In this document: one piece after another, positions 14,697 to 41,099 of the stretch
Layout of the letters: each line of letters opens with the position of its first letter
How positions within the stretch are numbered: position 1 is the stretch's first letter
The notes under the pieces: model-generated
Database searches by the model: none
The model's input: the letters and a program-made list of their open reading frames with translations, nothing else
Told to the model about the DNA's origin: nothing
NCBI GenBank assembly: GCA_015061955.1
Contig: SUVO01000015.1
Span: 1 to 63,193, forward strand
Direction: 5' to 3'
DNA from: Verrucomicrobiaceae bacterium
GTDB lineage: Bacteria > Verrucomicrobiota > Verrucomicrobiia > Opitutales > Intestinicryptomonadaceae
Length of the DNA: 63,193 nt
Made by a program: the position numbers and the translations under genes

Positions 14697-15170
14697 TTAA
14701 TCGGCTTTAAATATAAGGTGTTTGGGTAGTACTTCAATGATTGATGCTTCGCTATCATCGGCTTTTATAGAATTTCTTATATGTGCTTTATAATTGATTA
14801 TTGGAGATTCTATTTTGCCATCATCTTCTAAAGCTTCAGCTTTTGACGGGCTTAAAGCTATATACACAAATACAGCACAACTTACCAATAAGCAAGCTAT
14901 TGCACTCCACTCCGAAACAGCTCTTATTTTTGAGCGTTTAGGTGGTTCTATAAGTTTTTCTATATCTAAACCTGCAATCTTTGTAAAAACCACTTTACGA
15001 CCGTAAAGTTTACACATTGTTTTGTGCATAGCACAGCTTCGTAAAAAATAATCTTTTGCTTGGGAATTTGAATGAATACAATCGAAAAGTTGTTGAGTTT
15101 TATCGACAGATAATTCTCCGTCGATATATTCTGAAACTAAACGTTTAAAACCCTCTTTCGATATTATCAT
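14697..15170 (-). CDS. Probable membrane anti-sigma factor
   Basis: A 157-residue protein whose start overlaps the end of the ECF sigma gene (ATGA), the standard arrangement for a sigma/anti-sigma pair. The N-terminal ~60 residues contain VSEYIDGELS, like the 'LS.YLDGEL' opening of anti-sigma domains. The zinc-binding H-x3-C-x2-C is not present in normal form. One transmembrane helix lies at ~88-107 (AIACLLVSCAVFVYIAL), followed by a ~50-residue periplasmic tail. Inferred role: hold the sigma factor at the inner membrane until an envelope signal arrives. The call rests mainly on context and topology. Confidence 0.65.
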   Translation of the reverse strand: MIISKEGFKRLVSEYIDGELSVDKTQQLFDCIHSNSQAKDYFLRSCAMHKTMCKLYGRKVVFTKIAGLDIEKLIEPPKRSKIRAVSEWSAIACLLVSCAVFVYIALSPSKAEALEDDGKIESPIINYKAHIRNSIKADDSEASIIEVLPKHLIFKAD

Positions 15171-15772
15171 ACAAATTTTTCAAGCTTTTCACGCAAAGTA
15201 TCTCTAGCTCGGGCAAGACGGCTTTTTACTGTGCCAATGCTCAAGTTCAACTTTTGTGCAATTTCTTCGTAGCTCAATTCTTCAGCAACACGCATACGCA
15301 TAATTTCGGCGTATTCAGTTGGAAGGGAATTCATTACTTCTGCCATAATAGCTTCATTGTCGTTACGTTCAAGAAGTTCGGCTGGCGATACATCTGAACT
15401 TGGCAACACGTCGGCTAACGTAGCTTGAGCATCTTCGTTTGCATTTATTGTTATTGCGTTGTCGAGCGACATTGTAATATCGCTACCACGACGTTTTGCT
15501 TTTTTAAGTTTGTTTATTGAAAGATTACTAATAATTCTAAATATCCAAGTCTTTAGTGAAGACTCACCACGAAAGGAAAATATTCCTTTGCGTATTTTTA
15601 ACATTGTATCTTGGGTGAGTTCTTCGGCGTCCTCGTGATTTTTTGTAATCGACTTAGCTTTGAGGAAGATTTCGTTCCCATAGAGGCGGGAAAGCAATCT
15701 ATAGCCTTTTTCCTCATCGTGCTTGATAAGTTCGATGATTTCTTTCTCGTCTAATGTTTTTGAATTTGTCAT
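15167..15772 (-). CDS. ECF-family RNA polymerase sigma factor
   Basis: A 201-residue sigma factor of the RpoE/SigW type. Region 2 includes the core-binding and -10 recognition helices (EDAEELTQDTMLKI, FSFRGESSLKTWIFRI, NLSINKLKKAKRR). Region 4 is the helix-turn-helix ELSYEEIAQKLNLSIGTVKSRLARAR. The ~45-residue linker between them, rich in Ala and Asp, is somewhat long. Region 1.1 and region 3 are absent, as in ECF factors. It is divergent from the GTPase operon with a 192-base gap, so that operon is a plausible target. ECF factors usually also activate their own promoter. Confidence 0.92.
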   Translation of the reverse strand: MTNSKTLDEKEIIELIKHDEEKGYRLLSRLYGNEIFLKAKSITKNHEDAEELTQDTMLKIRKGIFSFRGESSLKTWIFRIISNLSINKLKKAKRRGSDITMSLDNAITINANEDAQATLADVLPSSDVSPAELLERNDNEAIMAEVMNSLPTEYAEIMRMRVAEELSYEEIAQKLNLSIGTVKSRLARARDTLREKLEKFV

Positions 15773-15964
15773 TTGCGTATAATATATAAGTTATAGACTA
15801 TTGTTTTTCTAAAAAGTTTCAATAATTTTTTTAGAAGTTTTGCTTTTAGATAAAAATTAACTTTTCTACCCTCGCTTTATAAATTCGGAAAAAATTGTAA
15901 AAAATCTAAAAAAAACAATTGCAGAGTAGATTTTTTTTTGAGATTATCAGTACAGATAAGTGTT
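15773..15964. promoter_or_regulatory. Divergent promoter region, sigma factor versus GTPase operon
   Basis: This 192-base AT-rich gap must hold the promoters of both the ECF sigma gene (minus) and the GTPase operon (plus). It contains several A/T homopolymer runs, including a ten-base T run just before the GTPase gene. I could not identify a confident ECF-type (GGAAC-like) -35 box; TTCGGAAAAA near 15886 is the only weak candidate. Confidence 0.4.
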
Positions 15965-17695
15965 ATGTTTGATTTTATAAAATTCTCGAAAAAGACAAAG
16001 GGCATAGCTCTTTTTAATTGTAGAACAGGTGTGGTCTCTAAAATAGACACCTTCCCCTTTTTTGCTTCGGCTCAATTGGAAGCTTGTGATACCCGCGATG
16101 CAGTGTTAGAGATTTTTACTCAAGGCGATGGCGCTTTTGTTGTTTCACCCATAAAGAAGGGTATGTTTATAAATAGCGCACCATTTAGTGAGCCTCAGAT
16201 TGTTTCCGACACCACAACATTGCGTATCGACGATAATTTGTTCTATTTAACTACATCGGCAGAAATAGCTGAACGCTTTAGAAAAATCGATGTGTCGCGT
16301 TGGTTAATATTTTATGCTGAAACTGGTAGAATTGAAGATGAAGTTCCATTTGAACGTGTGAAAAATAGTGTTATAAATCGCGGTTTAAGTGGCGATGGTA
16401 TGGCTATATGTCCATGTAATTTTGAGGTAGGTTTTACTTTTCCAAGTGTTTTTGGCGATGGTGAAAGTGGAAGCAATTCGTCTATAATGGCTATAACGCC
16501 TGTTTTAGCTGAATCGGCTGTTGCTGCAACGTGTCCACTGTGTTGGTTGAAGTTTGATCTTGGCGACGCTATGAGCATTGCTACTCACGAAAGTTTACGT
16601 GGCGATCCCATATTAGGTTCTGATGAAATGTTGCGCTTTTTACCAACATCGTTCAATGAAGATGGTGTTGCACTTGATGCAACTGGAATGCCTTCGCCCG
16701 ATATAGCTTGTCCACATTGTCGCAAGCGTTTGCCTCCAAATTATTTAGAGCTTGATCAAAAAATATTTTCGATAGTAGGTGCGCCAAGTTCTGGGAAATC
16801 GTATTATTTGAGCGTTCTTATAAATCAGTTGCAATTATCGCTTTACAAAAATTTTGGTATTGTGATGAAAGATTTAGATCCTTCGGGAAATATGCTTTTA
16901 ACACAAATGAAAAACCGTCTTTTTGGGGCGAAACGTGCTGAAGACGCAATATTGGCAAAGACTGCATTAGAAGGGGCAATGTACGAAAGATATCCACGTT
17001 TTGGGAAAATGGTTTCGTTGCCCAAGCCTATGACTTATTCTCTTGCTGAAGATAATAAACAGTCTACTTCTATGATTTTTTACGACAATGCTGGCGAGCA
17101 TTTTGAACCAGGTTTAGATATAGAACAATCGCCAGGTGCTATGCACGTTGCAAGTTCGGCAGCAATATTTTTCTTATTCGACCCTGCGGCAAATCGCGAC
17201 TTCAAAATGGTGTTGGCAGATTATCCAGATCCTCAGTTGTCGATAGTTGGTCGTATTGATCAGCAAGATACTATATTATCAGAAATGGAAGTTCGCATAA
17301 AGCGTATCAGGGCTCTTGATTTAGACAGAAAAATCGATACTCCTTTGGCTATAATAATAGGCAAGTGCGATATGTGGCAACATCTCTTAAAAGAACCATT
17401 GCCGAATTTGATAGATAATGGCAAATTAGATTTAGATGCAGTTGAGCGTTCAAGTAAAATATTGCGTAATTTCTTGTTGGAAATTGCACCTAATATAGTT
17501 GCTGCTGGCGATTCTATTTCGTCGAATACAAAATATTTTGCAGTAAGCGCCTTAGGACATTCACCTCAAATGATAGAAGACGGCTTTTGTGCAGGAAAAA
17601 TTGCACCTGTTCCTGGAAAATTAAATCCAATGAATGTTGAATTGCCTACAATTTGGGCGTTGTCGCAATGTACAGATTTAATACCTACTAAGTAA
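15965..17695 (+). CDS. Zinc-ribbon TRAFAC-like GTPase of a predicted multi-component system
   Basis: 576 residues from ATG 15965; an in-frame TTG nine codons upstream is less likely. The N-terminal ~145 residues are uncharacterised. Cysteine pairs follow (CPC ~149, CPLC ~189, CPHC ~248) and suggest a zinc ribbon. A P-loop NTPase domain comes next: G1 GAPSSGKSYY (~272), G3 DNAGEHF (~373) and G4 GKCDMW (~465). The DxxG and K-x-D motifs favour GTP over ATP. It resembles the GTPase domains, called DO-GTPase2-like in my recollection, of predicted conflict or signalling systems that pair with GAP1 proteins. The stop overlaps the next start (TAATG). Confidence 0.7.
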   Translation: MFDFIKFSKKTKGIALFNCRTGVVSKIDTFPFFASAQLEACDTRDAVLEIFTQGDGAFVVSPIKKGMFINSAPFSEPQIVSDTTTLRIDDNLFYLTTSAEIAERFRKIDVSRWLIFYAETGRIEDEVPFERVKNSVINRGLSGDGMAICPCNFEVGFTFPSVFGDGESGSNSSIMAITPVLAESAVAATCPLCWLKFDLGDAMSIATHESLRGDPILGSDEMLRFLPTSFNEDGVALDATGMPSPDIACPHCRKRLPPNYLELDQKIFSIVGAPSSGKSYYLSVLINQLQLSLYKNFGIVMKDLDPSGNMLLTQMKNRLFGAKRAEDAILAKTALEGAMYERYPRFGKMVSLPKPMTYSLAEDNKQSTSMIFYDNAGEHFEPGLDIEQSPGAMHVASSAAIFFLFDPAANRDFKMVLADYPDPQLSIVGRIDQQDTILSEMEVRIKRIRALDLDRKIDTPLAIIIGKCDMWQHLLKEPLPNLIDNGKLDLDAVERSSKILRNFLLEIAPNIVAAGDSISSNTKYFAVSALGHSPQMIEDGFCAGKIAPVPGKLNPMNVELPTIWALSQCTDLIPTK

Positions 17696-19041
17696 TGGCT
17701 TATCAACTAATATACACAAGTTATCAATCATCACTTGTTCAGGGCAGAACAGGTTTTAGTACTGTTGCTCGTTCGGTATCAATGCCAGAACGCTTAGTTG
17801 CTGAAATTGAAAGAATAAGTCAGTACGATATAGAAAAGGGTACCGTTTTTGCACACAGAATAATATCGTTGCCGGCTCAAGTATATCACGTTCTCACTCG
17901 TACGAAAGATTGTGGTGTAGATTATACAAATAGAAATAATTACATTGCCCATCATTTGATTTTTTCGGCGCAAGAAGTTGATAATATTACAGCAAATCCA
18001 GCAGAAGTAATGCTTTGCTTTGATGGTTGGGTTGATGCTTTTGAAGGTGAGCCTCGATTTATTGAAGATATAGATTGTTCACAATTTTGTAAAAGTGTTG
18101 TACAACTTCCTGCTAGAACATGGCAACGGCGCTTTGGCGATTGTGGATACGCATCGGTTCTTGGTGATAACTCGCAAATTTATGCTGATGTAAACGATTC
18201 CACAACTTTATTGTATTTGTATGCTGAGGCATTGTTATTGCTCAAGTTAAAAAACACTGATTGGTGCAAAACATTTACAACTCATTCTCTGCCTATCGAT
18301 AAACCTACCGATTTTAATTGGTGTGCTGGAAATTCTATATTACCAGAAAATGCCGATATTGATTTGTCGAGAAACAAAAGTAAAGTTTTACCATCGGGCA
18401 GAGGTGCCGAATATGCACGTTCAGGAGTTGCAACGAATGCCGAAAAATATAATTTGTCGGTGCAAAGAAATGAGTCGAGTAATAAAGGCTTTAATGTTGT
18501 TGAGTCTGAAAAGTCTTCGTATGTGCCTGTGTACATTGGTATTGCTGTCAGTGTTGTTATTTTGGTAATTGCGATTGTGTATTATGCGTTGGGGGCTGGA
18601 AGTTCTGATGATTTTGTAAAGCAGACTGAACCCAAAAAAGAGGTTTTATCAACTTTATCAACAGAAATCGATGTACCTGCAAACATAGAGCAACCCGATA
18701 AGAAAATGACCTTGTCTGAAATAATAACGCAGGTTCGTGAAAAAATAAATAACGGTAAGTTTTCTGAAGCAATAGAATGTTGGAATAAAAGCCAATACGC
18801 AAAAAAACATCCAAGATATTTGGAAGATTTTCAGTATGATATAGCTTCTACAATAAAGAGAATGATGCGATTTGCTGAAAATGTTTCGTTGAACGATATG
18901 GCATCTGAAAAAGAAAAAAATAAAGCCTTAACAAATTTAGAAATAATTGAAAACTCTGTTAACTTTCTGCCCGAAACTTCGCAGAAATTGACTTTACAAA
19001 AAATAGCGGAATTAAGACGCGCAATTAGTAAAAACAAATGA
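17695..19041 (+). CDS. GAP1-N-like membrane protein (GTPase-associated)
   Basis: A 448-residue protein. Residues 1-~160 open with QLIYTSYQSSLVQGRTGFST and continue with VARSVSMPERLV and NRNNYIAHHLIF. This pattern matches my memory of the GAP1-N domain of GTPase-associated protein 1. A linker follows, then a single transmembrane helix (~278-300, VYIGIAVSVVILVIAIVYYA). A C-terminal helical domain (~340-448) looks TPR-like or coiled. It starts on the GTPase stop codon and overlaps the following gene by four bases, so the three are translationally coupled. A physical link to the GTPase is inferred from context. Confidence 0.65.
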   Translation: MAYQLIYTSYQSSLVQGRTGFSTVARSVSMPERLVAEIERISQYDIEKGTVFAHRIISLPAQVYHVLTRTKDCGVDYTNRNNYIAHHLIFSAQEVDNITANPAEVMLCFDGWVDAFEGEPRFIEDIDCSQFCKSVVQLPARTWQRRFGDCGYASVLGDNSQIYADVNDSTTLLYLYAEALLLLKLKNTDWCKTFTTHSLPIDKPTDFNWCAGNSILPENADIDLSRNKSKVLPSGRGAEYARSGVATNAEKYNLSVQRNESSNKGFNVVESEKSSYVPVYIGIAVSVVILVIAIVYYALGAGSSDDFVKQTEPKKEVLSTLSTEIDVPANIEQPDKKMTLSEIITQVREKINNGKFSEAIECWNKSQYAKKHPRYLEDFQYDIASTIKRMMRFAENVSLNDMASEKEKNKALTNLEIIENSVNFLPETSQKLTLQKIAELRRAISKNK

Positions 19042-21860
19042 CACCAGAATTAGTAATAGTTAAAATACAGTCGTTGTTGTCGAGCGATAATACCGAAAAC
19101 TTGGCACAACAGCGCGCAATAGCAATGGAATATTGTAATCAGTGTACGCAAGTTCACGAGTTGTTAGAGCATTGTGGTGCAATGATAAAAGCTGGGCGCG
19201 AGTATTCTGCGTTGGAGTTTGCTGAATCGAGTACATTGCTTGAACGTATAAATACGCTTTCATTTAAAGAAGGTAAAATTTGGTTAGATTATTGTGCCGA
19301 AAAAAAATTACCATCGCCAATGCCGTTCGACGAAACACTGGTAGAAATGGTTTCGGCATTGTATCAAAAAAGCATTTCGCAAACACATCCGTTGTACAGA
19401 GATTATCGCAGAGCTATGCGTTTGCGTGATTTCGATAAAGCGTTATCGGTTATAACTACAATTTCAAAAATTAATTCAACCGATGAACTGGCTAAAGAAG
19501 AATGTCAGCGATTGCGTAAAAGTGTTGTTGAACGCAAGCTTAAACGTTTGGCTGAATTATTACATGGTAATATTCCCGAAACAAACGATGAATTTGAAAA
19601 AATATGTGCATTCCTTGAACGTAATGATGATTATGTACGTGGTATGCCAGAATGGACCGAAGCTATGAAAAAACGAGCTGAAATATCGCAAGCTAATCTA
19701 TACGAGAAGGCCGTCGGAATTGTAAGCAAAATGCGAATGCTTTCACCAGACGAAAATTTAGATGAAGTTGTATCGCTTTTGGGCGAATTAAATTCTTTGC
19801 CTGAAAATCTAAAGCTTTCTCCGATAGATGAAGATTTTATTGAAAGTATTTCTAAATATGCGTTAAAACGTCAGGCTGAAAAAATATCGAAAGAAAAAAT
19901 TGCAAGAGCAGTCGTAGCAATAACAGAAGAATTAGAAAATAAAAAAGCTGTCGATAATAAATTGCGTTTGGAAAAACTCAAAAAGTTGCGTTCAGAAGCT
20001 AGTAGTGGTTTGTCTACCGAAATTGCAAAAGTTCTCGATAAAAAAATATCGGTGCTCGAGAAAAAATTGTTTATGCGTAAAATTTCATTGTACTCTGGAA
20101 TTTTTGCAGGGGTTTCGTTGTTGGGCGTGGGTGGTTATTTTGGTTCTATTATAGTAATTGATAAAATGGAACGCAAAGATTTTGAAACTTCTTTGGCAAA
20201 AATATCGCACATAGAAGACCCTAACGAAAAATTAAATTCTTTGAATAAACTTGAAGCTAAGTATAGAGATATTTTAAATGATCCAGCCTTTGGTGGCAAG
20301 TTTTTAGATATTAAAAAACAGGCAGATGCAAAGGTCGCCGAAACCGACAGACTTAAGAAGATGTTGGATTTTGCTGAAAAAATCAATTATACAACAGCAT
20401 CGTCAAAAGATGTTTCGGAAGCAAAAAAGATATTAGATAAAGTTGGTGAGGATGTATTTTTGTTGCCCGAGTCGGTTCAGCCAGCAATAAAAGAACGTTT
20501 AGATAAAATACAATCGAAAGCTATCGATAAAATAGAAGAACGTAAAACTAATATCAGACGTAGAATTAGAGATTTGCTAAAGAATTATGAGGAGCTTTTA
20601 GCCCAATACGAAAGCTTTAATTTTGATAGAACAATGCTCGATAAACGCTACGATGTAATTGTTCCAGAATTGCGAGCTTTGATGGAAGATTCTGATTCTA
20701 TTTTTAAACCAGATCAAATAGATATTGATAGTTATAACGATTTGTCGAATCGTATAAAAGATGCAAAATCTAAATATGCTGATTTTGATGATGCAAGAAA
20801 GTCGCTGTTGTCGTCGAAGACATTTGAAGAATATATAGCAATGGCTAAGCTTTTGAATGATAATCCAAATGTGCCAGCCGATTTTACGAAAAAACTTTCA
20901 AAAATTTTAAATCAAACACAAGCTATCAAAACTGGGCAATTAGCTAATTATGCCGATGCATCGGCAGTTGAAAACGCTTTCAGGATTGGTGAATTTTCGC
21001 GTGCAGTTGTAAAATTACCTCAGTTGTTGGGCGATGTACATATTTATGTCAGAGAAAATGGGAAGCGTATTCACTCTTTAGGCGAAGCTGTTGAACGTGA
21101 AAACAAATGGGATAGTGGTTCCGAAACAATGCAACGTGTAAACGAGATTGTTGAAGGTGGCACAACAAATACAGTATTGTACAGAAAACATCAGATTGAT
21201 GGGCAAATTCCAACGGGCGAAAAATTGTTCAAATTGGGATTGAGTGCAGAGTCGAAATTTGCTCAAGAGGTGTTGAATATTGCTGCTCAGGATTCTTTAA
21301 TTGAAGCTATTGAATATTGTGCAAATGGAAATGTAAATCCAGTGTTTAAACTGATATTAGAAAAATATCTCTTTGAGCAAATGCGTAAAGACCCTATCTT
21401 TAGTGGATTGCTTTATTCTAAAACAGCACTCGCACGTGAAAAAATGGTCAATAAACATGCCAGAGGTTTTTCGTTCCACTCTTGGTTGTTTGAAAATGGA
21501 CCTCGTAAACGTTTTGTTGAAAAAGAATTGTATTCAACTCCTTTACCTAATTTAAAGAAAGAAGCTAAGGTGTGTGTAGATTCTATTCTTATTATCCAAA
21601 AAAATCCGTTGAAAATGGTTGGTATTGTTCAAGAAAACGGTAAGAAAAAAGTTTTTGCAGATTCAAAGGGCGCTATTTGGGCTGTAAATATGGCTGGTAA
21701 TTTTTCCAGAATGGCATCGAGTATGGATATTATGGGGAAAGGTTCGGCAGAGTTGAGCCCGTTGTTTGCAGAAGTAAAGTCTGATAAAGAAGTAAATGAT
21801 GAGGCTGTTGCAAAGTTTAATCACGAATCTGCCGACAAATCTACTAAGAAAGCTAAGTAG
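19038..21860 (+). CDS. Large coiled-coil protein with one central transmembrane helix
   Basis: A 940-residue protein that I cannot assign to a named family. Residues 1-~345 are helical, probably cytoplasmic and rich in Glu and Lys, with repeat-like segments. One strong transmembrane helix lies at ~349-372 (LYSGIFAGVSLLGVGGYFGS). Residues ~373-640 are long heptad-rich coiled coils. The C-terminal ~300 residues look globular, with many aromatic residues. With no signal peptide the N-terminus should be inside and the coiled coil outside or periplasmic. The 4-base ATGA overlap with the GAP1-like gene ties it to the same unit. It may act as the membrane scaffold or effector. Confidence 0.6.
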   Translation: MTPELVIVKIQSLLSSDNTENLAQQRAIAMEYCNQCTQVHELLEHCGAMIKAGREYSALEFAESSTLLERINTLSFKEGKIWLDYCAEKKLPSPMPFDETLVEMVSALYQKSISQTHPLYRDYRRAMRLRDFDKALSVITTISKINSTDELAKEECQRLRKSVVERKLKRLAELLHGNIPETNDEFEKICAFLERNDDYVRGMPEWTEAMKKRAEISQANLYEKAVGIVSKMRMLSPDENLDEVVSLLGELNSLPENLKLSPIDEDFIESISKYALKRQAEKISKEKIARAVVAITEELENKKAVDNKLRLEKLKKLRSEASSGLSTEIAKVLDKKISVLEKKLFMRKISLYSGIFAGVSLLGVGGYFGSIIVIDKMERKDFETSLAKISHIEDPNEKLNSLNKLEAKYRDILNDPAFGGKFLDIKKQADAKVAETDRLKKMLDFAEKINYTTASSKDVSEAKKILDKVGEDVFLLPESVQPAIKERLDKIQSKAIDKIEERKTNIRRRIRDLLKNYEELLAQYESFNFDRTMLDKRYDVIVPELRALMEDSDSIFKPDQIDIDSYNDLSNRIKDAKSKYADFDDARKSLLSSKTFEEYIAMAKLLNDNPNVPADFTKKLSKILNQTQAIKTGQLANYADASAVENAFRIGEFSRAVVKLPQLLGDVHIYVRENGKRIHSLGEAVERENKWDSGSETMQRVNEIVEGGTTNTVLYRKHQIDGQIPTGEKLFKLGLSAESKFAQEVLNIAAQDSLIEAIEYCANGNVNPVFKLILEKYLFEQMRKDPIFSGLLYSKTALAREKMVNKHARGFSFHSWLFENGPRKRFVEKELYSTPLPNLKKEAKVCVDSILIIQKNPLKMVGIVQENGKKKVFADSKGAIWAVNMAGNFSRMASSMDIMGKGSAELSPLFAEVKSDKEVNDEAVAKFNHESADKSTKKAK

Positions 21861-21869
21861 TTTATTAAA

Positions 21870-22277
21870 ATGACATCTCCAAAATATAAATTACTTTGGA
21901 AAGGCGTTGAAAGTGGTCCGTACTCTGCTTCCGATATTCAACGTATGTTGAAGTTCGGAGAAATTGGTGTGTTTCATAAAATAAAAGCAGATGGTATGCC
22001 TGATTATGTGTTGTTGAAGGATTTTGATTTTTCTACAAAAACATATGTAGCTTCTAAAAATAAAAATGTTAGTATTTTTATGGAATATGTTGCGTATGTA
22101 ATTGCTGGAATGTCGTTTTTATCGTTGTTGTTTTTAGGCATAGGTGTAGTAGGTGGTATTACTATGTGGTTGCTTGGATATAAACCAATCGCGTGTAGAT
22201 GTATTTTATTGAGTATGGTTATTGGTTCATTCGGATTTATTTTCTTTGAGAAAATTTATCCGACACTGGTTCAATAA
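21870..22277 (+). CDS. GYF_2-domain small membrane protein
   Basis: A 135-residue protein. Residues ~5-55 form a GYF_2 (DUF4339) domain: YKLLWKGVESGPYSASDIQ then IGVFHKIKADG. It keeps the GP[YF] core of this peptide-binding fold. Two transmembrane helices follow (~71-95 and ~105-128). It begins 9 bases after the coiled-coil gene in the same operon. GYF domains bind proline-rich peptides in eukaryotes; bacterial GYF_2 proteins are mostly uncharacterised and often sit on membrane proteins. A second GYF_2 protein is encoded at 32442-33293. Confidence 0.75.
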   Translation: MTSPKYKLLWKGVESGPYSASDIQRMLKFGEIGVFHKIKADGMPDYVLLKDFDFSTKTYVASKNKNVSIFMEYVAYVIAGMSFLSLLFLGIGVVGGITMWLLGYKPIACRCILLSMVIGSFGFIFFEKIYPTLVQ

Positions 22278-32441: not shown

Positions 32442-33293
32442 TTAATGATTTCTTTTGAAGGTTTTTCCGTGTATATATTTTAATTGTCGCAAGATTACAG
32501 ATACAAAAATAATAGATACTAAAGTTAAAAATATCTGTAATGAACAATTGTAAATTTTGTATATAAAAATGTCATTTAACAAATGTAGATTGGCTTTTAA
32601 AGTTATGGCAAAGTTATTGTAAATAATACTAATCCACGTAATAAACCATACAAACATCCATGTTTTTACAAATATATGCGATACTATATGACGACGCTTT
32701 CTAATGGTCATTTCAAGTGATCTATAAATGCGTTTTATTATTGCAGGCACTAATATTATATTTGCAATAGGTGTTAATGTTCCAATAACAGCTTTTGTTG
32801 GCGACATCATAAAACCTGTTGTATTTTTCTTTGCCGTTTTTATTACTTTTGATGTCCAAATAGCCAACATTACAAAAATAAATATAAACATTCCCCATTG
32901 CACTAAATTTATAAGTTTTAGAGAAAGCATTGTTTCGTTGAACTGCAATAGTGTCTTTATATCTTCAGGCGAATTTATTTGTCTTATATCTGGAGAAAAC
33001 AATTCTACGACACGTACAATCATATATATTTTGTATCCCAACAAAAGCATGAAGGCATACATAATAGCGCGTAATAGGTACGTACAATGTTTTAGATTTT
33101 CAAAGTTGAAATCTTTTTTTTGGCTGATTGTTTTTTTATAAAAATCGGTACGCGAAAATTCAGCCCAGTTTTTCATATTTTGTGTCCAAACTTGCGTAGA
33201 GGGTGTGATTTTCCCCTCTTTAAAAAGTTTTATGAGAGCTGGGTCTGATATAGGACCTTCTTGTTCCTTATTTTCTTTTATGTAGTACCACAT
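32442..33293 (-). CDS. GYF_2-domain, DUF4328-type membrane protein
   Basis: A 283-residue protein. An N-terminal GYF_2 domain (WYYIKENKEQEGPISDPALI to WTQNMKNWAEFS, ~2-50) is followed by a multi-helix membrane region (~75-270) of about five or six helices. Its middle segment GFMMSPTKAVIGTLTPIANI resembles the DUF4328 conserved part. No enzyme motif is seen. It is a single gene, convergent with the EEP gene and upstream of mnmE on the same strand. It is the second GYF_2 membrane protein in the window. Confidence 0.7.
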   Translation of the reverse strand: MWYYIKENKEQEGPISDPALIKLFKEGKITPSTQVWTQNMKNWAEFSRTDFYKKTISQKKDFNFENLKHCTYLLRAIMYAFMLLLGYKIYMIVRVVELFSPDIRQINSPEDIKTLLQFNETMLSLKLINLVQWGMFIFIFVMLAIWTSKVIKTAKKNTTGFMMSPTKAVIGTLTPIANIILVPAIIKRIYRSLEMTIRKRRHIVSHIFVKTWMFVWFITWISIIYNNFAITLKANLHLLNDIFIYKIYNCSLQIFLTLVSIIFVSVILRQLKYIHGKTFKRNH

Positions 33294-36622: not shown

Positions 36623-37231
36623 ATGAGAATTTTAGTTTCATTTTTTATTTTACTGATTGTTGTTCCAACTTTTGCGAACGATTTTCAACAGGCTGATGCC
36701 ATAATGAAAGAGGCTGTACGACTTCGTACGCTTACTGCAAAAACTGAAATGCAGACAATAAAAGAAGTGGAAAATTTAGATAGACTTTGTACTTCTGCAC
36801 GCCTGTATTTGTCTACATTAAATTCAAAAATCGAGGAGTTGGAAAAATCGAATAAAGCTGTATCAAAGGCTAATGAAGAGTTGTCGGTATCGATAAAATC
36901 TGATATAAAAAATATAGATTTGATATCGAAGTATCTCGATAAATTTTATACAACAGTGTATTTGCAACTTCCTAAAGATTGTAGTTTGAGAAAACAATTT
37001 AAAATGGAAAATTTCTCAGCCAAAACTGTCCCCGAAAAATTACGAACTACTTTGGCATTTTTAGAAGCTCTTAAACGTACAGATAAGGAGGTTGTGTACG
37101 AAAACAATATGGTTTCTTCTGGGATTTTTCTGAAGGTGAAGGCTCAAAAGGAAAACTCAACTGATGTTGTTCAAGGCAATGTAATTCGTGCTGATATGAA
37201 AAAGTTTTACGAAGAAAGGATTGAAAAATGA
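36623..37231 (+). CDS. Exported coiled-coil protein, DUF3450-like, of the TonB2-type operon
   Basis: A 202-residue protein with a signal peptide (cleavage FA-ND, residue ~18) and then a long heptad-rich helix (~25-95). A smaller C-terminal part follows (VSSGIFLKVKAQKEN). Length, topology and position directly before a TtpC-like gene fit the DUF3450 proteins that precede TonB2-type systems in Vibrio and Shewanella. Sequence identity to DUF3450 is not obvious by eye, so the family call leans on context. The 4-base overlap with the next gene indicates translational coupling. Confidence 0.6.
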   Translation: MRILVSFFILLIVVPTFANDFQQADAIMKEAVRLRTLTAKTEMQTIKEVENLDRLCTSARLYLSTLNSKIEELEKSNKAVSKANEELSVSIKSDIKNIDLISKYLDKFYTTVYLQLPKDCSLRKQFKMENFSAKTVPEKLRTTLAFLEALKRTDKEVVYENNMVSSGIFLKVKAQKENSTDVVQGNVIRADMKKFYEERIEK

Positions 37232-38394
37232 AAAAAAATTTAATCCTCTTATTAACATTTTTATGTGCCAATATTTGCATAGCAAACTCGCAACTAATAG
37301 ATGTTGCAAAACGCGAATTAGAACAAGCTCAACGCGAGTATTCTGACGCATTGAAAAAACACAATACACTTATAAGTGAGAAACAAAAGCAGTATAATGT
37401 TGTCTGTGCTGAAATTGAAAAAGCAAAAGATTTGTTGTTGCAATTAAAACGTGGGGCAGAAGCAGTTTCAAATCTGAAAGATAGCCGATTGTTTTATAAA
37501 AATTTATGTTCAGAATTGTCGTTAGAGCTTGAAAGAATTAGCAGTAAAAGCATTCAGCCATCGACTTCGTCTGGAGAAATTTATGCGTTGATGAAATCGG
37601 AAATGCAAAATAGCTTTTGCCAGTTATCGCTCGCTACATTTCCAGTAACAGCTTTCGATGTTAAAACAAAGGAACGTTTACAAGGTAAAGCATTTAGCGT
37701 TGGTGGATTTAAATATTTTGTAAGTACAGAAAAGAGTGGCTTTTTAAGTAGTGCAAATATTGTTTATGGTAGTAAATATGCCGAAGAAATAAATAGTTTT
37801 ATAGATGGTAAAAGCAATACAATTCCTGTTGATTTATCGTTTGGTAAGTTAGAGAAATCTGAACGCAATGCTACAACATTTTTAGAAAAAGTTGAAAAAG
37901 GGGGGATTTGGATTTATCCAATTTTATTGTTGGGAGTATTGTCTATTTTGGTAACTGTATTGAAATGTATTCAGTTGGTAGTGGTGTCGACTAAAAAATC
38001 AATGGCTAATTTTAATCAAGAATTTCTCAATACAATAAACGATGAAATGTCGGTAAAACAGAAAGAAGATTTGGCGTTCAACTTTGTATGTCGCAAACAA
38101 GTGCAGTTGAAATGTTGGATAGAAGTTTTGTCTATTTCTGCGGCTGTTTCGCCCTTATTGGGGTTGCTTGGAACAGTAAGTGGTATTATAAAAACTTTTG
38201 CAGAGCTTTCGGTGGCGTCTTCTAAGACTAACGAAATAAGCGATGGTATAGCTGAGGCTTTGATAACAACCGAGTATGGCTTGATTGTTGCAATTCCTGC
38301 GTTGATTGCTAATGCGTTGTTATCGCGTAAAATTAAAAAGATTGTAGAAAATTTGCACATTAGCTTGTTTGAATGTGTGTCTTCTAAAAAATGA
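37228..38394 (+). CDS. TtpC-like MotA/TolQ/ExbB-domain protein
   Basis: A 388-residue protein. It has a signal peptide (cleavage ~IA-NS, residue 20), a coiled coil (~25-110), a periplasmic middle, and then three membrane helices of the MotA/TolQ/ExbB fold. These are GGIWIYPILLLGVLSILVTV (~227-250), SAAVSPLLGLLGTVSGIIKT (~305-330) and TTEYGLIVAIPALIANALLS (~345-370). The LLGLLGTV and GL..AIPA motifs are diagnostic. The long N-terminal extension distinguishes TtpC of TonB2 systems from plain ExbB. It probably couples the proton motive force to the TonB partner. Overlaps both neighbours by four bases. Confidence 0.85.
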   Translation: MKKNLILLLTFLCANICIANSQLIDVAKRELEQAQREYSDALKKHNTLISEKQKQYNVVCAEIEKAKDLLLQLKRGAEAVSNLKDSRLFYKNLCSELSLELERISSKSIQPSTSSGEIYALMKSEMQNSFCQLSLATFPVTAFDVKTKERLQGKAFSVGGFKYFVSTEKSGFLSSANIVYGSKYAEEINSFIDGKSNTIPVDLSFGKLEKSERNATTFLEKVEKGGIWIYPILLLGVLSILVTVLKCIQLVVVSTKKSMANFNQEFLNTINDEMSVKQKEDLAFNFVCRKQVQLKCWIEVLSISAAVSPLLGLLGTVSGIIKTFAELSVASSKTNEISDGIAEALITTEYGLIVAIPALIANALLSRKIKKIVENLHISLFECVSSKK

Positions 38395-38798
38395 TAAAGT
38401 CTATTACAGATAATATTCTATATATTTTTGATTCTGCCATATGTTTGATGTCGGCATTGGCAGTGGTAGGTATTGTGGCGTTTTATTTCGCAATTTCTAC
38501 ATATATTTTAATAAGAACAGAGGGAAAACATTGTAATTTAGATTTTATAAAAGCTCGGTTGCACGATGTTAAGATTGTAAAAATATTGGCATTTTCTGCA
38601 CCTATGATTGGGTTGTTAGGAACTGTGGTTGGAATTGGTAAGTGTATCGCGTTTGCCGAAGATACTGCGGCTGTTTCTGATGGCATTTCTTTCGCATTGC
38701 TCACCACTCAAACTGGACTGATAATAGCTATTCCAGCTTGGATATCTGCAATAGTACTAACTTCAAAATTGAAAAAAATATCGTTGGAGTGCAAGTAA
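38391..38798 (+). CDS. exbB: ExbB-like proton channel subunit (short form)
   Basis: A 135-residue protein, shorter than classical ExbB (~240), as is usual for ExbB2 in TtpC-containing systems. Three helices are seen: SALAVVGIVAFYFAISTYIL, SAPMIGLLGTVVGIGKC and LLTTQTGLIIAIPAWISAIV. The family signatures GLLGTV and TGL..AIPA are intact. It forms the inner-membrane motor with ExbD. Its stop overlaps the ExbD start (TAATG). Confidence 0.88.
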   Translation: MIKSITDNILYIFDSAICLMSALAVVGIVAFYFAISTYILIRTEGKHCNLDFIKARLHDVKIVKILAFSAPMIGLLGTVVGIGKCIAFAEDTAAVSDGISFALLTTQTGLIIAIPAWISAIVLTSKLKKISLECK

Positions 38799-39196
38799 TG
38801 AGAAAACAAAATATAGATTTTCAAGATGACGCGCAGGTGGAAGAAATAAATATTTCTCCACTTATAGATGTGGTGTTTATTCTGTTGATTTTTTTCATTC
38901 TAACTATGGCGTTTTCCGATAAGTTAGCTATGGATATAGATGTTCCACAAGCATCTAATGCGTCGGCTAAAAGTAGTGATTTTTTGAATGTTTCAATTTC
39001 TAAATCAGGCGAAATTTTTCTTCAAGAACAACCTTGTTCGTTGTCTATATTGCCAGAACGAATAAAGGCATTACATAAAGATAAAATTTTAATTTATACC
39101 GATAAATCAGTTAGAGCCGATAAACTTATGGAAGTAATCGATTCTGTGAAATCGGTAAGTGGTGTTTCCATATACTTAGCAACTCAAAAAAAATGA
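38798..39196 (+). CDS. exbD: ExbD-like energy-transduction protein
   Basis: 132 residues from ATG 38798, which overlaps the ExbB stop by one base; the frame continues upstream but that part lies inside exbB and is rejected. The family block EEINISPLIDVVFILLIFFI contains the single membrane helix with the essential Asp that carries protons. The periplasmic domain of ~80 residues ends in the usual IYTDKSVRADKLMEVID fold. It overlaps tonB by four bases. Confidence 0.93.
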   Translation: MRKQNIDFQDDAQVEEINISPLIDVVFILLIFFILTMAFSDKLAMDIDVPQASNASAKSSDFLNVSISKSGEIFLQEQPCSLSILPERIKALHKDKILIYTDKSVRADKLMEVIDSVKSVSGVSIYLATQKK

Positions 39197-39858
39197 GCAG
39201 TTCAACAACATTAAAAACAACATTTGTAAAAATCGGCAGTTTGGTTATGGCGATAGTTTTTGTTGTTGCACTTTTTGTTTTGCAAGCAGTGTCTATTTCT
39301 TCAAAAAAAAATGTTCATAATGATGTTGTGAAAATTTTTCAATACCAGCCTCAACAAAAAGAAGTAAAGCTCAATAACGAAGTAAAAAAAATCAAGGCGA
39401 TGGTTTCAAATGTTAAAATTGGACACGCTTTGCCAGTAGAAGTTCCAGCGATAAATGCTTCAAGTTTGTCGTTGCCTGATGCTTCTATTTCTGTGCCTAA
39501 AAACGATGGTGGAGATTTTTCGTTGGCTATTTTTTCAACTGATACGGCAAATAGTTTTACTTCTGATATTTTTGAATTAGATATGCTTGATAATGTGCCT
39601 CGCCGTTTAGATAAAACAATAGTTCGCTATCCTAAGCAAATGTTGAAACGAGGAATAGAAGGTAGTGTGAAACTTCGAGTTTTGATAGATTCGACAGGCG
39701 TGGTGTCGATAGAATCGGTCATTAGTGCAACTAATTTATATTTTGAAAAAGTAGCACTTCAGGCCGTTGAAAAATTTTTGTACGAAGCACCTTTGCGAAA
39801 CGGCAAACCTGTGAAAGCTCGTTTTGTTTTAGAAGTCCCATTTAAAATTATACGATGA
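39193..39858 (+). CDS. tonB: TonB-family energy transducer
   Basis: A 221-residue protein with one N-terminal membrane helix (~15-36, SLVMAIVFVVALFVLQAV). A periplasmic linker of ~90 residues lacks the classical Pro-rich EP/KP repeats. The C-terminal TonB domain (~140-221) reads YPKQMLKRGIEGSVKLRVLI, then ALQAVEKFLYEAPLRNGKPV. The R-G-x-x-G-x-V/L core and the final PFKII are typical. It should contact TonB boxes of outer-membrane receptors; none is encoded in the window. Coupled by ATGA overlaps to exbD and the TPR gene. Confidence 0.92.
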   Translation: MSSSTTLKTTFVKIGSLVMAIVFVVALFVLQAVSISSKKNVHNDVVKIFQYQPQQKEVKLNNEVKKIKAMVSNVKIGHALPVEVPAINASSLSLPDASISVPKNDGGDFSLAIFSTDTANSFTSDIFELDMLDNVPRRLDKTIVRYPKQMLKRGIEGSVKLRVLIDSTGVVSIESVISATNLYFEKVALQAVEKFLYEAPLRNGKPVKARFVLEVPFKIIR

Positions 39859-41099
39859 AATATTTTATAACATTTTTACTATTGTTGCCTATATCTATTT
39901 TTGCAGAGATATCGGTTTCCGATATGTTCTCAAAGCCAACAATGAATAAGTACGAAGCGGAAATAGTCGCTAAAGCTATGAAGGCTTCAAACGTGTCGGA
40001 AGAATGCGAAATACTCCTTTCTGCATCTAAAAAAAGCTGGGCTGGGGCGCCATTGTTATTCAACTTAGGTAATGCATATTTTAGGAAAGGCGACCATAAC
40101 GAAGCCATAAAATATTTTGAACTTGCTTTGCAAAAACAAAAGTTCTTTTTAGCATACAAAAATTTGGGGTTTGCATATTATGCAAAAAATGACCAACAGA
40201 AAGCCCTTGATGCGTTTGCACGTGCTCTGGCAATTTCCGGAAACAGCGATGTTCAAATACTAACATGGATGGCTAACCATTGTGCAAAAGAAGGCGATAT
40301 TTCTTCGGCATTGGCTATGTGTAATCAGGCTTTGATTTTTTCTCGTAGTGATGCTCTTTACTATGCCAAAATAAGATTTATGATTGATTTGAATATGTTG
40401 GCAGAAGCCGAAAAATTGGCATCGCTTCAATTTGCTAAGACAAGAAACAAAAACTATCTGCGTTTGCTTGTGAAGGCTCGTTTAGCCCAAGATGATAAGG
40501 TCGGAGCTATTTCTGCGTTAGAAATGTTGAATAGTTGCAACGATATTGATAAATCAAATTTAGAGTTGTTAGCTGATTTATATTTTTCTGTGGGAGCGTA
40601 CTCAAAAGCTTTAGAATTCTACGGTAAAAATTCGTCATTTGCTAAACTTGAAAATTTGGCGTTTGCATGTATAAACACAAATGATCTGAAAACTGCATTA
40701 AAAATAGCAAAAAAATTAGAAACAAAAAATGTAGCAAATAAAATTAAAGGAATTATATTTGCGCGATCGGGCGATTTTTCAAAAGCTGTGTTGCTTTTGC
40801 GTAGTTATTTAGATTGTAATCAATCTGATTTTGTAGCAGTTTGGGAGCTTGCAGAAGCATTGTACAAAAACAAAGAATATACACAGAGTTCTGTTATGTA
40901 TTCACGTTTACTTGTCGACGAAGCTTATCGGTATTCTGCAAAGCATTCACTTTTGCGTAATGCGTTAGCCTTAGAGCGTTATAATGAAGCATTAAGTTGG
41001 GCAAGAGACTTAGCAAAAAACTATCCTACGCCAGAGGTGGAAGATTTCAAAAATAAATTGGAAAACTACTGCAATGAATTGGAAAAGTCCACACAATAG
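39855..41099 (+). CDS. Exported TPR protein of the TonB2-type operon
   Basis: A 414-residue protein with a signal peptide (cleavage FA-EI, residue ~17) and tandem tetratricopeptide repeats from ~55. Clear units include LLFNLGNAYFRKGDHNEAIK, AYKNLGFAYYAKNDQQKALD and a later ELLADLYFSVGAYSKAL. A TPR protein at this position is the last member of TonB2 clusters in Vibrio and relatives, where it supports the transducer. Periplasmic protein-protein scaffold is the inferred role. Its end overlaps the possible folP start by 26 bases. Confidence 0.87.
   Translation: MKYFITFLLLLPISIFAEISVSDMFSKPTMNKYEAEIVAKAMKASNVSEECEILLSASKKSWAGAPLLFNLGNAYFRKGDHNEAIKYFELALQKQKFFLAYKNLGFAYYAKNDQQKALDAFARALAISGNSDVQILTWMANHCAKEGDISSALAMCNQALIFSRSDALYYAKIRFMIDLNMLAEAEKLASLQFAKTRNKNYLRLLVKARLAQDDKVGAISALEMLNSCNDIDKSNLELLADLYFSVGAYSKALEFYGKNSSFAKLENLAFACINTNDLKTALKIAKKLETKNVANKIKGIIFARSGDFSKAVLLLRSYLDCNQSDFVAVWELAEALYKNKEYTQSSVMYSRLLVDEAYRYSAKHSLLRNALALERYNEALSWARDLAKNYPTPEVEDFKNKLENYCNELEKSTQ

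Follow-up and report, generated by a model that had tools for sequence, protein, structure and literature searches.

DO-GTPase/GAP1-N2 systems have been predicted to be conflict systems (Kaur et al. 2020, eLife, PMC7159879). In the accessible part of that account, an N-terminal zinc ribbon is reported for 60% of the DO-GTPases and two paralogous GTPase genes for 38% of the systems, an FNIII-repeat protein is named for the GAP1-N2 systems, and verrucomicrobiae are listed. The GTPase YcjX, which has a crystal structure (PDB 6nz4/6nz5/6nz6), is linked to membrane stress through psp operons and is counted as a DO-GTPase in a phage shock protein (PSP) survey, according to the portions of these sources available to us. 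Lastly, TolQ/TolR-like motors with heterologous TolR pairs are described for bacteria of the Planctomycetes-Verrucomicrobia-Chlamydiae (PVC) group in the accessible part of a further study (MBE 2025, PMC12204202).

Here we analyzed a locus of a Verrucomicrobiaceae bacterium (order Opitutales, family Intestinicryptomonadaceae) lying on contig SUVO01000015.1, whose 63,193 nucleotides are called the window below; the genome (G000) comprises 2.43 Mb in 35 contigs. Four linked plus-strand genes, GTPase, GAP1-N2, CC and GYF (15965..22277), are preceded by a divergent pair encoding an extracytoplasmic function (ECF) sigma factor and an anti-sigma-like protein. By its core pair of genes, as judged from their sequences, the locus is a DO-GTPase/GAP1-N2 system. 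We predict that the four genes encode a GTP-switched inner-membrane complex sensing or repairing envelope stress, and put the probability of this reading at roughly 48%. The features, with amino acids (aa) numbered within each protein, are as follows.

14697..15170, minus strand: anti-sigma-like protein, open reading frame (ORF) of 157 aa, one membrane helix (89-107)
15167..15772, minus strand: ECF sigma factor, 201 aa (Pfam Sigma70_r4_2 E=2.9e-17, Sigma70_r2 E=4.4e-13)
15794..15821, minus strand: ECF-type promoter-like site facing the sigma gene, exact match to TGAAAC-N17-GTCTA
15918..15947, plus strand: ATTGCA-N18-GATTAT preceded by an A-tract, perhaps a vegetative-type promoter for the GTPase operon (by eye, low confidence)
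15965..17695, plus strand: DO-GTPase2-like GTPase, 576 aa, with FHA-like fold, weak GYF-like stretch, zinc ribbon and TRAFAC-type G domain
17695..19041, plus strand: GAP1-N2 protein, 448 aa (PF20013 E=1.2e-17), one membrane helix (277-295)
19038..21860, plus strand: CC protein, 940 aa, with a conserved helical domain at the N-terminus (1-170), a helical region, one helix in the membrane (356-374), long helices and a C-terminal alpha/beta domain (656-912)
21870..22277, plus strand: GYF_2-like protein, 135 aa, two membrane helices (GYF_2 E=0.042)

The GTPase/GAP1 pair and its membrane partners

A first-pass annotation of this DNA, made from the letters alone, had described four coupled genes, and the ORF coordinates confirm the junctions that it gave: stop and start share base 17695 in TAATG at the GTPase/GAP1 junction, GAP1 and CC overlap by ATGA at 19038-19041, and 9 bases separate the end of CC (21860) from the start of GYF (21870). 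The 192-base gap to the divergent ECF gene likewise holds, from its start at 15772 to the GTPase ATG at 15965, the conserved one in the aligned starts of relatives. We take the unit to consist of the ECF pair and the four genes, since the NAD kinase gene lies elsewhere in two loci (L042 and L043) in which the module is whole. Against such a unit, the GTPase lies apart from GAP1-CC in G021 and G047, and GYF went unrecognized in L061 and L070.

All the GTPase motifs named at first pass are present, namely GAPSSGKS at 272, DNAGEHF at 374 and GKCD at 466, together with a zinc ribbon of two CPxC pairs (190 and 249). G277, K278, E378 and D469 are invariant in 38/38 alignment rows, as are the zinc-ribbon cysteines C190, C193, C249 and C252. 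The protein thus shares with the DO-GTPases, as far as these are characterized in the accessible part of Kaur et al., the P-loop, a DxxG-like motif with a conserved glutamate (E378 in our own mapping), a GKxD-type motif and the N-terminal zinc ribbon, and as in those systems a GAP1-N2 gene directly follows the zinc-ribbon TRAFAC-type GTPase gene, with membrane partners. The Pfam model DO-GTPase2 matched all 22 rows of the GTPase alignment (A1) at E<=1 and exceeded its cut-off in 3/4 scanned relatives, which supports the weaker call in the window protein. The predicted fold resembles Ras-like GTPases and YcjX, with a G domain of the YcjX type; indeed, YcjX was the best VIA-align match (235 residues). 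The identity to YcjX is 12%, however, the N-terminal domains differ and the partners here are GAP1-N2, CC and GYF. Among six GTPase segments compared with GYF proteins, the GYF-like part scored best, with a probability of only 10.5% (42 of 49 GYF proteins used, seven dropped by a selection rule). A sequence search of the PDB with the GTPase gave little of use.

Two differences from the described systems, again within the accessible text, concern gene content. G000 carries a single GTPase copy (profile A1), unlike the 38% of systems with two; the paralogue is optional, so that membership is not excluded. Moreover, the Pfam scan of seven window proteins returned no FNIII family. Nor is a CC protein described in that account, and linkage to ECF or TolQ/TolR-like genes is a further difference, the main text having 0 occurrences of MotA, ExbB, TolQ and sigma.

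The GAP1-N-like protein with one membrane helix was clearly borne out, as GAP1-N2 reached 64.7 bits against a cut-off of 24 and matched 15/15 rows of the GAP1 alignment (A2). GAP1-M and GAP1-C had no Pfam match in the window protein, whereas L131 gave a GAP1-M match of low significance (E=0.059), and a single-sequence GAP1 scan of genome contigs recovered no relative. The predicted 940-residue membrane protein (CC) is indeed an ORF with one hydrophobic helix; AlphaFold2 modeled it with a mean pLDDT of 86.4 and a pTM of 0.46, and no Pfam family matched it below E=0.1. As for the GYF_2 membrane protein, the two helices stand, while the domain stays below the Pfam cut-off in the window and lies above it in the distant homologue of L051 (45.5 bits, with an RDD domain), which matches the window protein at E=3.3e-4 only; this relative supports the weak call. 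In those scanned from other lineages, GYF proteins carry RDD, CD225 or DUF4190 domains. Taken as a whole, the profile search that the first pass had proposed returned GAP1-N2 above cut-off and left DO-GTPase2 and GYF_2 of the window proteins below theirs. An NCBIfam scan of the window proteins gave little of use apart from the ECF factor.

Mean identity within the family is uneven along the proteins: 76% in the zinc domain, 70% in the G domain, 57% in the GYF-like part and 27% in the FHA-like part of the GTPase; 54% in the N2 domain, 40% in the middle and 24% at the C-terminus of GAP1; and 53% in the N-domain, 24% in the post-membrane coil and 38% in the C-terminal domain of CC.

Several further GTPase and GYF genes were observed. 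The called GTPase ORF lacks the FHA-like part in some order-level relatives (L049:2458-3669 and L050:8407-9672, 403 and 421 aa), and in another the match is split across two ORFs (L055:8034-9822). A genome of the same genus holds a diverged second copy (L145:4494-10989, G008:C1), in which a 603-aa GTPase precedes a 1567-aa protein with an internal CC-like region. In the window, outside the module, another GYF_2 protein (32442-33293, minus strand, E=1.4e-14) with several hydrophobic stretches lies beside an MnmE-like gene (by eye). Elsewhere in the same genome (L210:8991-15275, G000:C18), a sigma-like gene adjoins a Ser/Thr-kinase-like gene, followed on the opposite strand by genes for a membrane protein with a zinc ribbon and for two GYF_2 proteins, of which one starts with an SPFH-like part (all labeled by eye).

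Distribution and the motor-linked and sigma-linked forms

GTPase and GAP1 were found in the identical 26 of 54 genomes, own included, which argues for a pairing beyond chance; CC was found in 23. The pairing of a TRAFAC-type GTPase with GAP1-N2 proposed at first pass is supported. In the window's family, 18/19 genomes (own included) hold GTPase and GAP1; CC is absent in G010 and was not seen in G001, whose region contains N. The order of a divergent ECF gene followed by GTPase, GAP1, CC and GYF is repeated within the family, and also among environmental Opitutae, amid different flanking genes, so that the genes mostly stay together in relatives, as the first-pass annotation had expected. Across 387 Verrucomicrobiota genomes, GAP1-N2 was matched in 72, the CC N-terminal domain in 54 and both together with the GTPase in 50. 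Since 47/58 CC matches lie <=7.5 kb from a GAP1-N2 match (11/58 do not), CC is, by gene neighborhood, a frequent partner of GAP1-N2 in the phylum. Genes of relatives were called with a longest-ORF script in place of a gene finder; in some loci (L223 and L225) module genes were masked by ORFs on the opposite strand, and a scan of all ORFs was used instead. Runs of N occur in L031, L062 and L106, and in L031 and L062 the run seems to start within GAP1.

The distribution also bears on whether the locus is an anti-phage or programmed-death system, in which GAP1 would sense an invader, the GTPase set a threshold and the membrane protein act as effector. It has the same core pair as the loci for which Kaur et al. 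predict conflict roles, and GYF and membrane partners are noted there in planctomycetes, as far as the accessible text goes. Beyond the family the distribution is patchy, with GTPase in 8/35 other-family genomes of the order and a GTPase profile match in 80/387 genomes of the phylum, and the partners vary: GAP1 ranges from about 300 to 1260 aa across the phylum, GYF comes with the domains mentioned above, and extra genes of about 535 aa occur in L213 and L217. However, the near-universal presence in the family, with stable gene order, weakens the conflict idea of the first-pass annotation. Moreover, none of the four proteins matched PADLOC (2023) at E<=1, and a search for GTPase relatives on plasmids, phages or viral contigs found none. 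An alignment search of genome contigs gave 441 GTPase relatives, and the best-matching named records among the best 80, which were kept, were Opitutales/Verrucomicrobiota metagenome genomes, a few of them from animal guts by title, and one Puniceicoccaceae isolate. We consider a conflict role quite unlikely.

In several lineages the GYF gene is followed by a MotA/TolQ/ExbB gene, often with two TolR/MotB-like genes. This motor-linked form lay beyond the view of the first-pass annotation. GTPase plus GAP1 or CC was held by 93/99 loci (the six dropped being L062, L119-L122 and L133), and these divide into 58 with ECF, 15 with a MotA-like gene, 0 with both and 20 with neither. An ECF or MotA gene counted at any position in the locus, the class with neither includes short contigs, and L084 and L227, seemingly one genome, and three further pairs that share sequence were all kept in the count. 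A larger count of 130 loci, with duplicates, gave 116 with the core, of which 76 had ECF, 17 MotA and 0 both. Both B-like genes were present in 9/15 MotA loci and one in L127, while L125, L126, L128, L130 and L131 end near the MotA gene; in L220 the motor genes lie upstream of the GTPase. No GYF-profile match was obtained in L222, L223 and L225.

The B-like genes are labeled TolR/MotB-like on the grounds of an Asp within the hydrophobic stretch near the N-terminus (9/9 in alignment A8 and, by eye, 7/8 in A9), gene order and the precedent of PMC12204202, as far as that article is accessible; the A8 alignment itself had no convincing Pfam match (best ExbD, E=0.39 in 1/9). Like the motors described there, the motor form of related lineages combines a TolQ-like gene with two dissimilar TolR-like genes in the vicinity of a helical-repeat gene. 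In contrast, the article pairs those motors with a vWA transducer and a TPR gene, its main text has 0 occurrences of GTPase and GYF, and the window locus is without motor genes. The A subunit of the motor form also matches ZorA of the Zorya system (ZorAB; E down to 8e-10), but only through its MotA-like core, and no ZorB match was found in four scanned B-like proteins.

No TolQ/MotA-like gene lies beside the window module, and the motor A-subunit profile (A7) had no match in G000 and one weak match (1.6e-5) across the 19 family genomes. Of six MotA_ExbB matches in the window genome, two fall in what looks like an ordinary ExbB/ExbD/TonB-like operon at 37228-41099 of the window, with two ExbB/TolQ-like, ExbD-like, TonB-like and TPR-like genes (PF01618 matches and by eye). 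Two contigs of genomes without the GTPase, G035:C49 and G053:C90, carry strong A7 relatives (E about 1e-66). In a Spartobacteria genome the module has as neighbors (L127:2568-8014) a gene of the ThiF/E1 type (ThiF E=2.5e-50), one for an FHA protein and small ORFs that by eye resemble ubiquitin and RING proteins; together they may form a bacterial locus for ubiquitin-like conjugation.

The ECF pair and the promoter-like sites

An ECF gene of the same cluster is present in 15/18 family loci. Homologues of the anti-sigma-like protein (cluster 18) occur in 11/81 loci, window included, and a different cluster (c6) occupies the place behind ECF in many other loci. What speaks for a role as anti-sigma partner, the one assigned at first pass, is its position, the helix in the membrane and a low-scoring match to zf-HC2 (E=0.1), and we keep the label as a provisional one.

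The site TGAAAC-N17-GTCTA facing the sigma gene is matched at >=9/11 positions in 10 of the 15 family loci with the cluster ECF, and at 7/11, no better than in shuffled sequences, in the other five; because the motif had originally been picked out by eye in these very sequences, this count is partly circular. The shuffles preserved dinucleotides for the sigma-gene upstream region and used pair blocks for the GTPase upstream region. The motif suggests that the sigma gene is likely autoregulated. Before the GTPase, an ECF-type site reached <=8/11 in 17/18 family loci, and the best, 9/11 in L072, is reached by 9.5% of shuffles. Exact sites number three in the genome, one before the ECF gene of the module and the other two before a short ORF that we take to be BRO-N-like and near one that is presumably metX-like. 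With <=1 mismatch allowed, the genome has 34 sites and the control 42, hence no ECF regulon is recognizable and none is claimed.

A vegetative-type promoter before the GTPase operon is possible, judging from the site at 15918..15947. By pattern, an A-tract/TTGC element was found 51-61 nt upstream of the GTPase in 7/18 family loci, the window not among them; a second promoter pattern misses the site at 15918..15947 and within the window does no better than chance. Inspection of the environmental Opitutae loci, made by eye, yielded no firm motif.

These results bear on two further explanations. The complex could be the sensor of the ECF pathway, its membrane proteins controlling the anti-sigma factor, with the sigma regulon as output and the GTPase operon no target. 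This fits the presence of this ECF type in 58/93 loci, divergent beside the GTPase in the tabulated cases, the ECF-type site before the sigma gene with no convincing one before the GTPase, and the total lack of loci with both motor and ECF genes. However, a physical link from GAP1 or CC to an anti-sigma factor is not among the known ones, and the regulon that would be the output is not recognizable; we regard this explanation as unlikely, though the least so of the alternatives. Alternatively, the proteins could form a scaffold that builds the envelope constitutively, serving lipid or outer-membrane traffic, without any part in stress and with ECF a neighbor through shared intergenic space. 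The possible vegetative-type promoter and the near-universal presence in the family would suit such a scaffold, but the ECF adjacency is kept in differing genomic surroundings and the GTPase has a YcjX-like fold, so that we find this the hardest of the alternatives to credit.

A predicted GTP-switched complex in the envelope

Our preferred reading, a GTP-switched inner-membrane complex for envelope stress, would start from a soluble GTPase with a G domain nearest YcjX and from GAP1-N2, CC and GYF proteins with predicted membrane helices. The segments preceding these helices would be cytosolic. Since identity in the family is high in the zinc/G, GAP1-N2 and CC N-terminal domains, we infer that a core complex forms in the cytosol and that the end of CC makes a contact in the periplasm: in the GTP state, the zinc/G domain, the GAP1-N2 domain and CC 1-170 would bind one another, and the CC stalk would relay this state to the periplasmic C-terminal domain. 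GAP1 could serve as membrane adaptor or regulator, and GYF as a tether. In lineages where TolQ/MotA-like and TolR/MotB-like genes accompany the module, the output would probably be mechanical and ion-driven; in the window lineage, with no adjoining motor genes and an ECF/anti-sigma pair in front, a link to transcription is probable. The module would by analogy resemble a PSP/YcjX-type membrane-stress device in its working, and the stress role is inferred from the YcjX, PSP and ECF associations.

Several observations weigh against this reading. The window GTPase matched DO-GTPase2 below the cut-off (E=4.8e-4, 20.3 bits vs 27), Foldseek places atlastins above YcjX, and the window GYF_2 match is also below cut-off. 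The CC helices before the membrane helix (171-350) are poorly conserved too (27%, family mean). Charge counts around the membrane helices are indecisive (GAP1 2 vs 1, CC 4 vs 4), so that the orientation of GAP1 and CC is a predicted one. G010, of the same genus and assembled as a single contig, is without GTPase, GAP1 and CC, and the module is thus dispensable. To the patchiness beyond the family must be added that the GTPase lies apart from GAP1-CC in G021 and G047, that in the phylum GTPase and GAP1 occur without a CC match in 19 genomes, GTPase without GAP1 in 11 and CC without GTPase in three, and that 11 of the 14 genomes with an A7 match (among the 54) have no GTPase match, so that a motor-type A subunit is not confined to this module. 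Finally, the poor ECF-type sites before the GTPase and the surplus of control sites genome-wide give no support to sigma control of the operon or to a regulon. What the first-pass annotation had envisaged, a complex of this kind induced by envelope stress, therefore stands in part: membrane helices in 3/4 proteins and the conserved divergent ECF gene are in its favor, whereas for ECF control of the operon there is no convincing site before the GTPase.

A broader proposal, which we consider doubtful but worth setting down, is that of a GTP-gated trans-envelope machine across Verrucomicrobiota. A YcjX-like GTPase/GAP1/CC/GYF switch would in one form control a TolQR/MotAB-like motor whose two B subunits differ; the gut lineage studied here and environmental Opitutae would lack that motor and have an ECF pathway attached, mechanical output having been exchanged for transcriptional output, in a direction that is not established.

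In the open-access literature searched, DO-GTPase/GAP1 systems are known from comparative-genomic predictions only. The frequent third protein CC, the split between motor-linked and sigma-linked forms and the fold link to the stress GTPase YcjX are added here, and turn a vague conflict prediction into testable claims, namely that the GTPase gates an ion-driven motor and that its loss alters envelope stress. Verrucomicrobiota, gut species included, would thereby gain a candidate envelope-stress device of their own.
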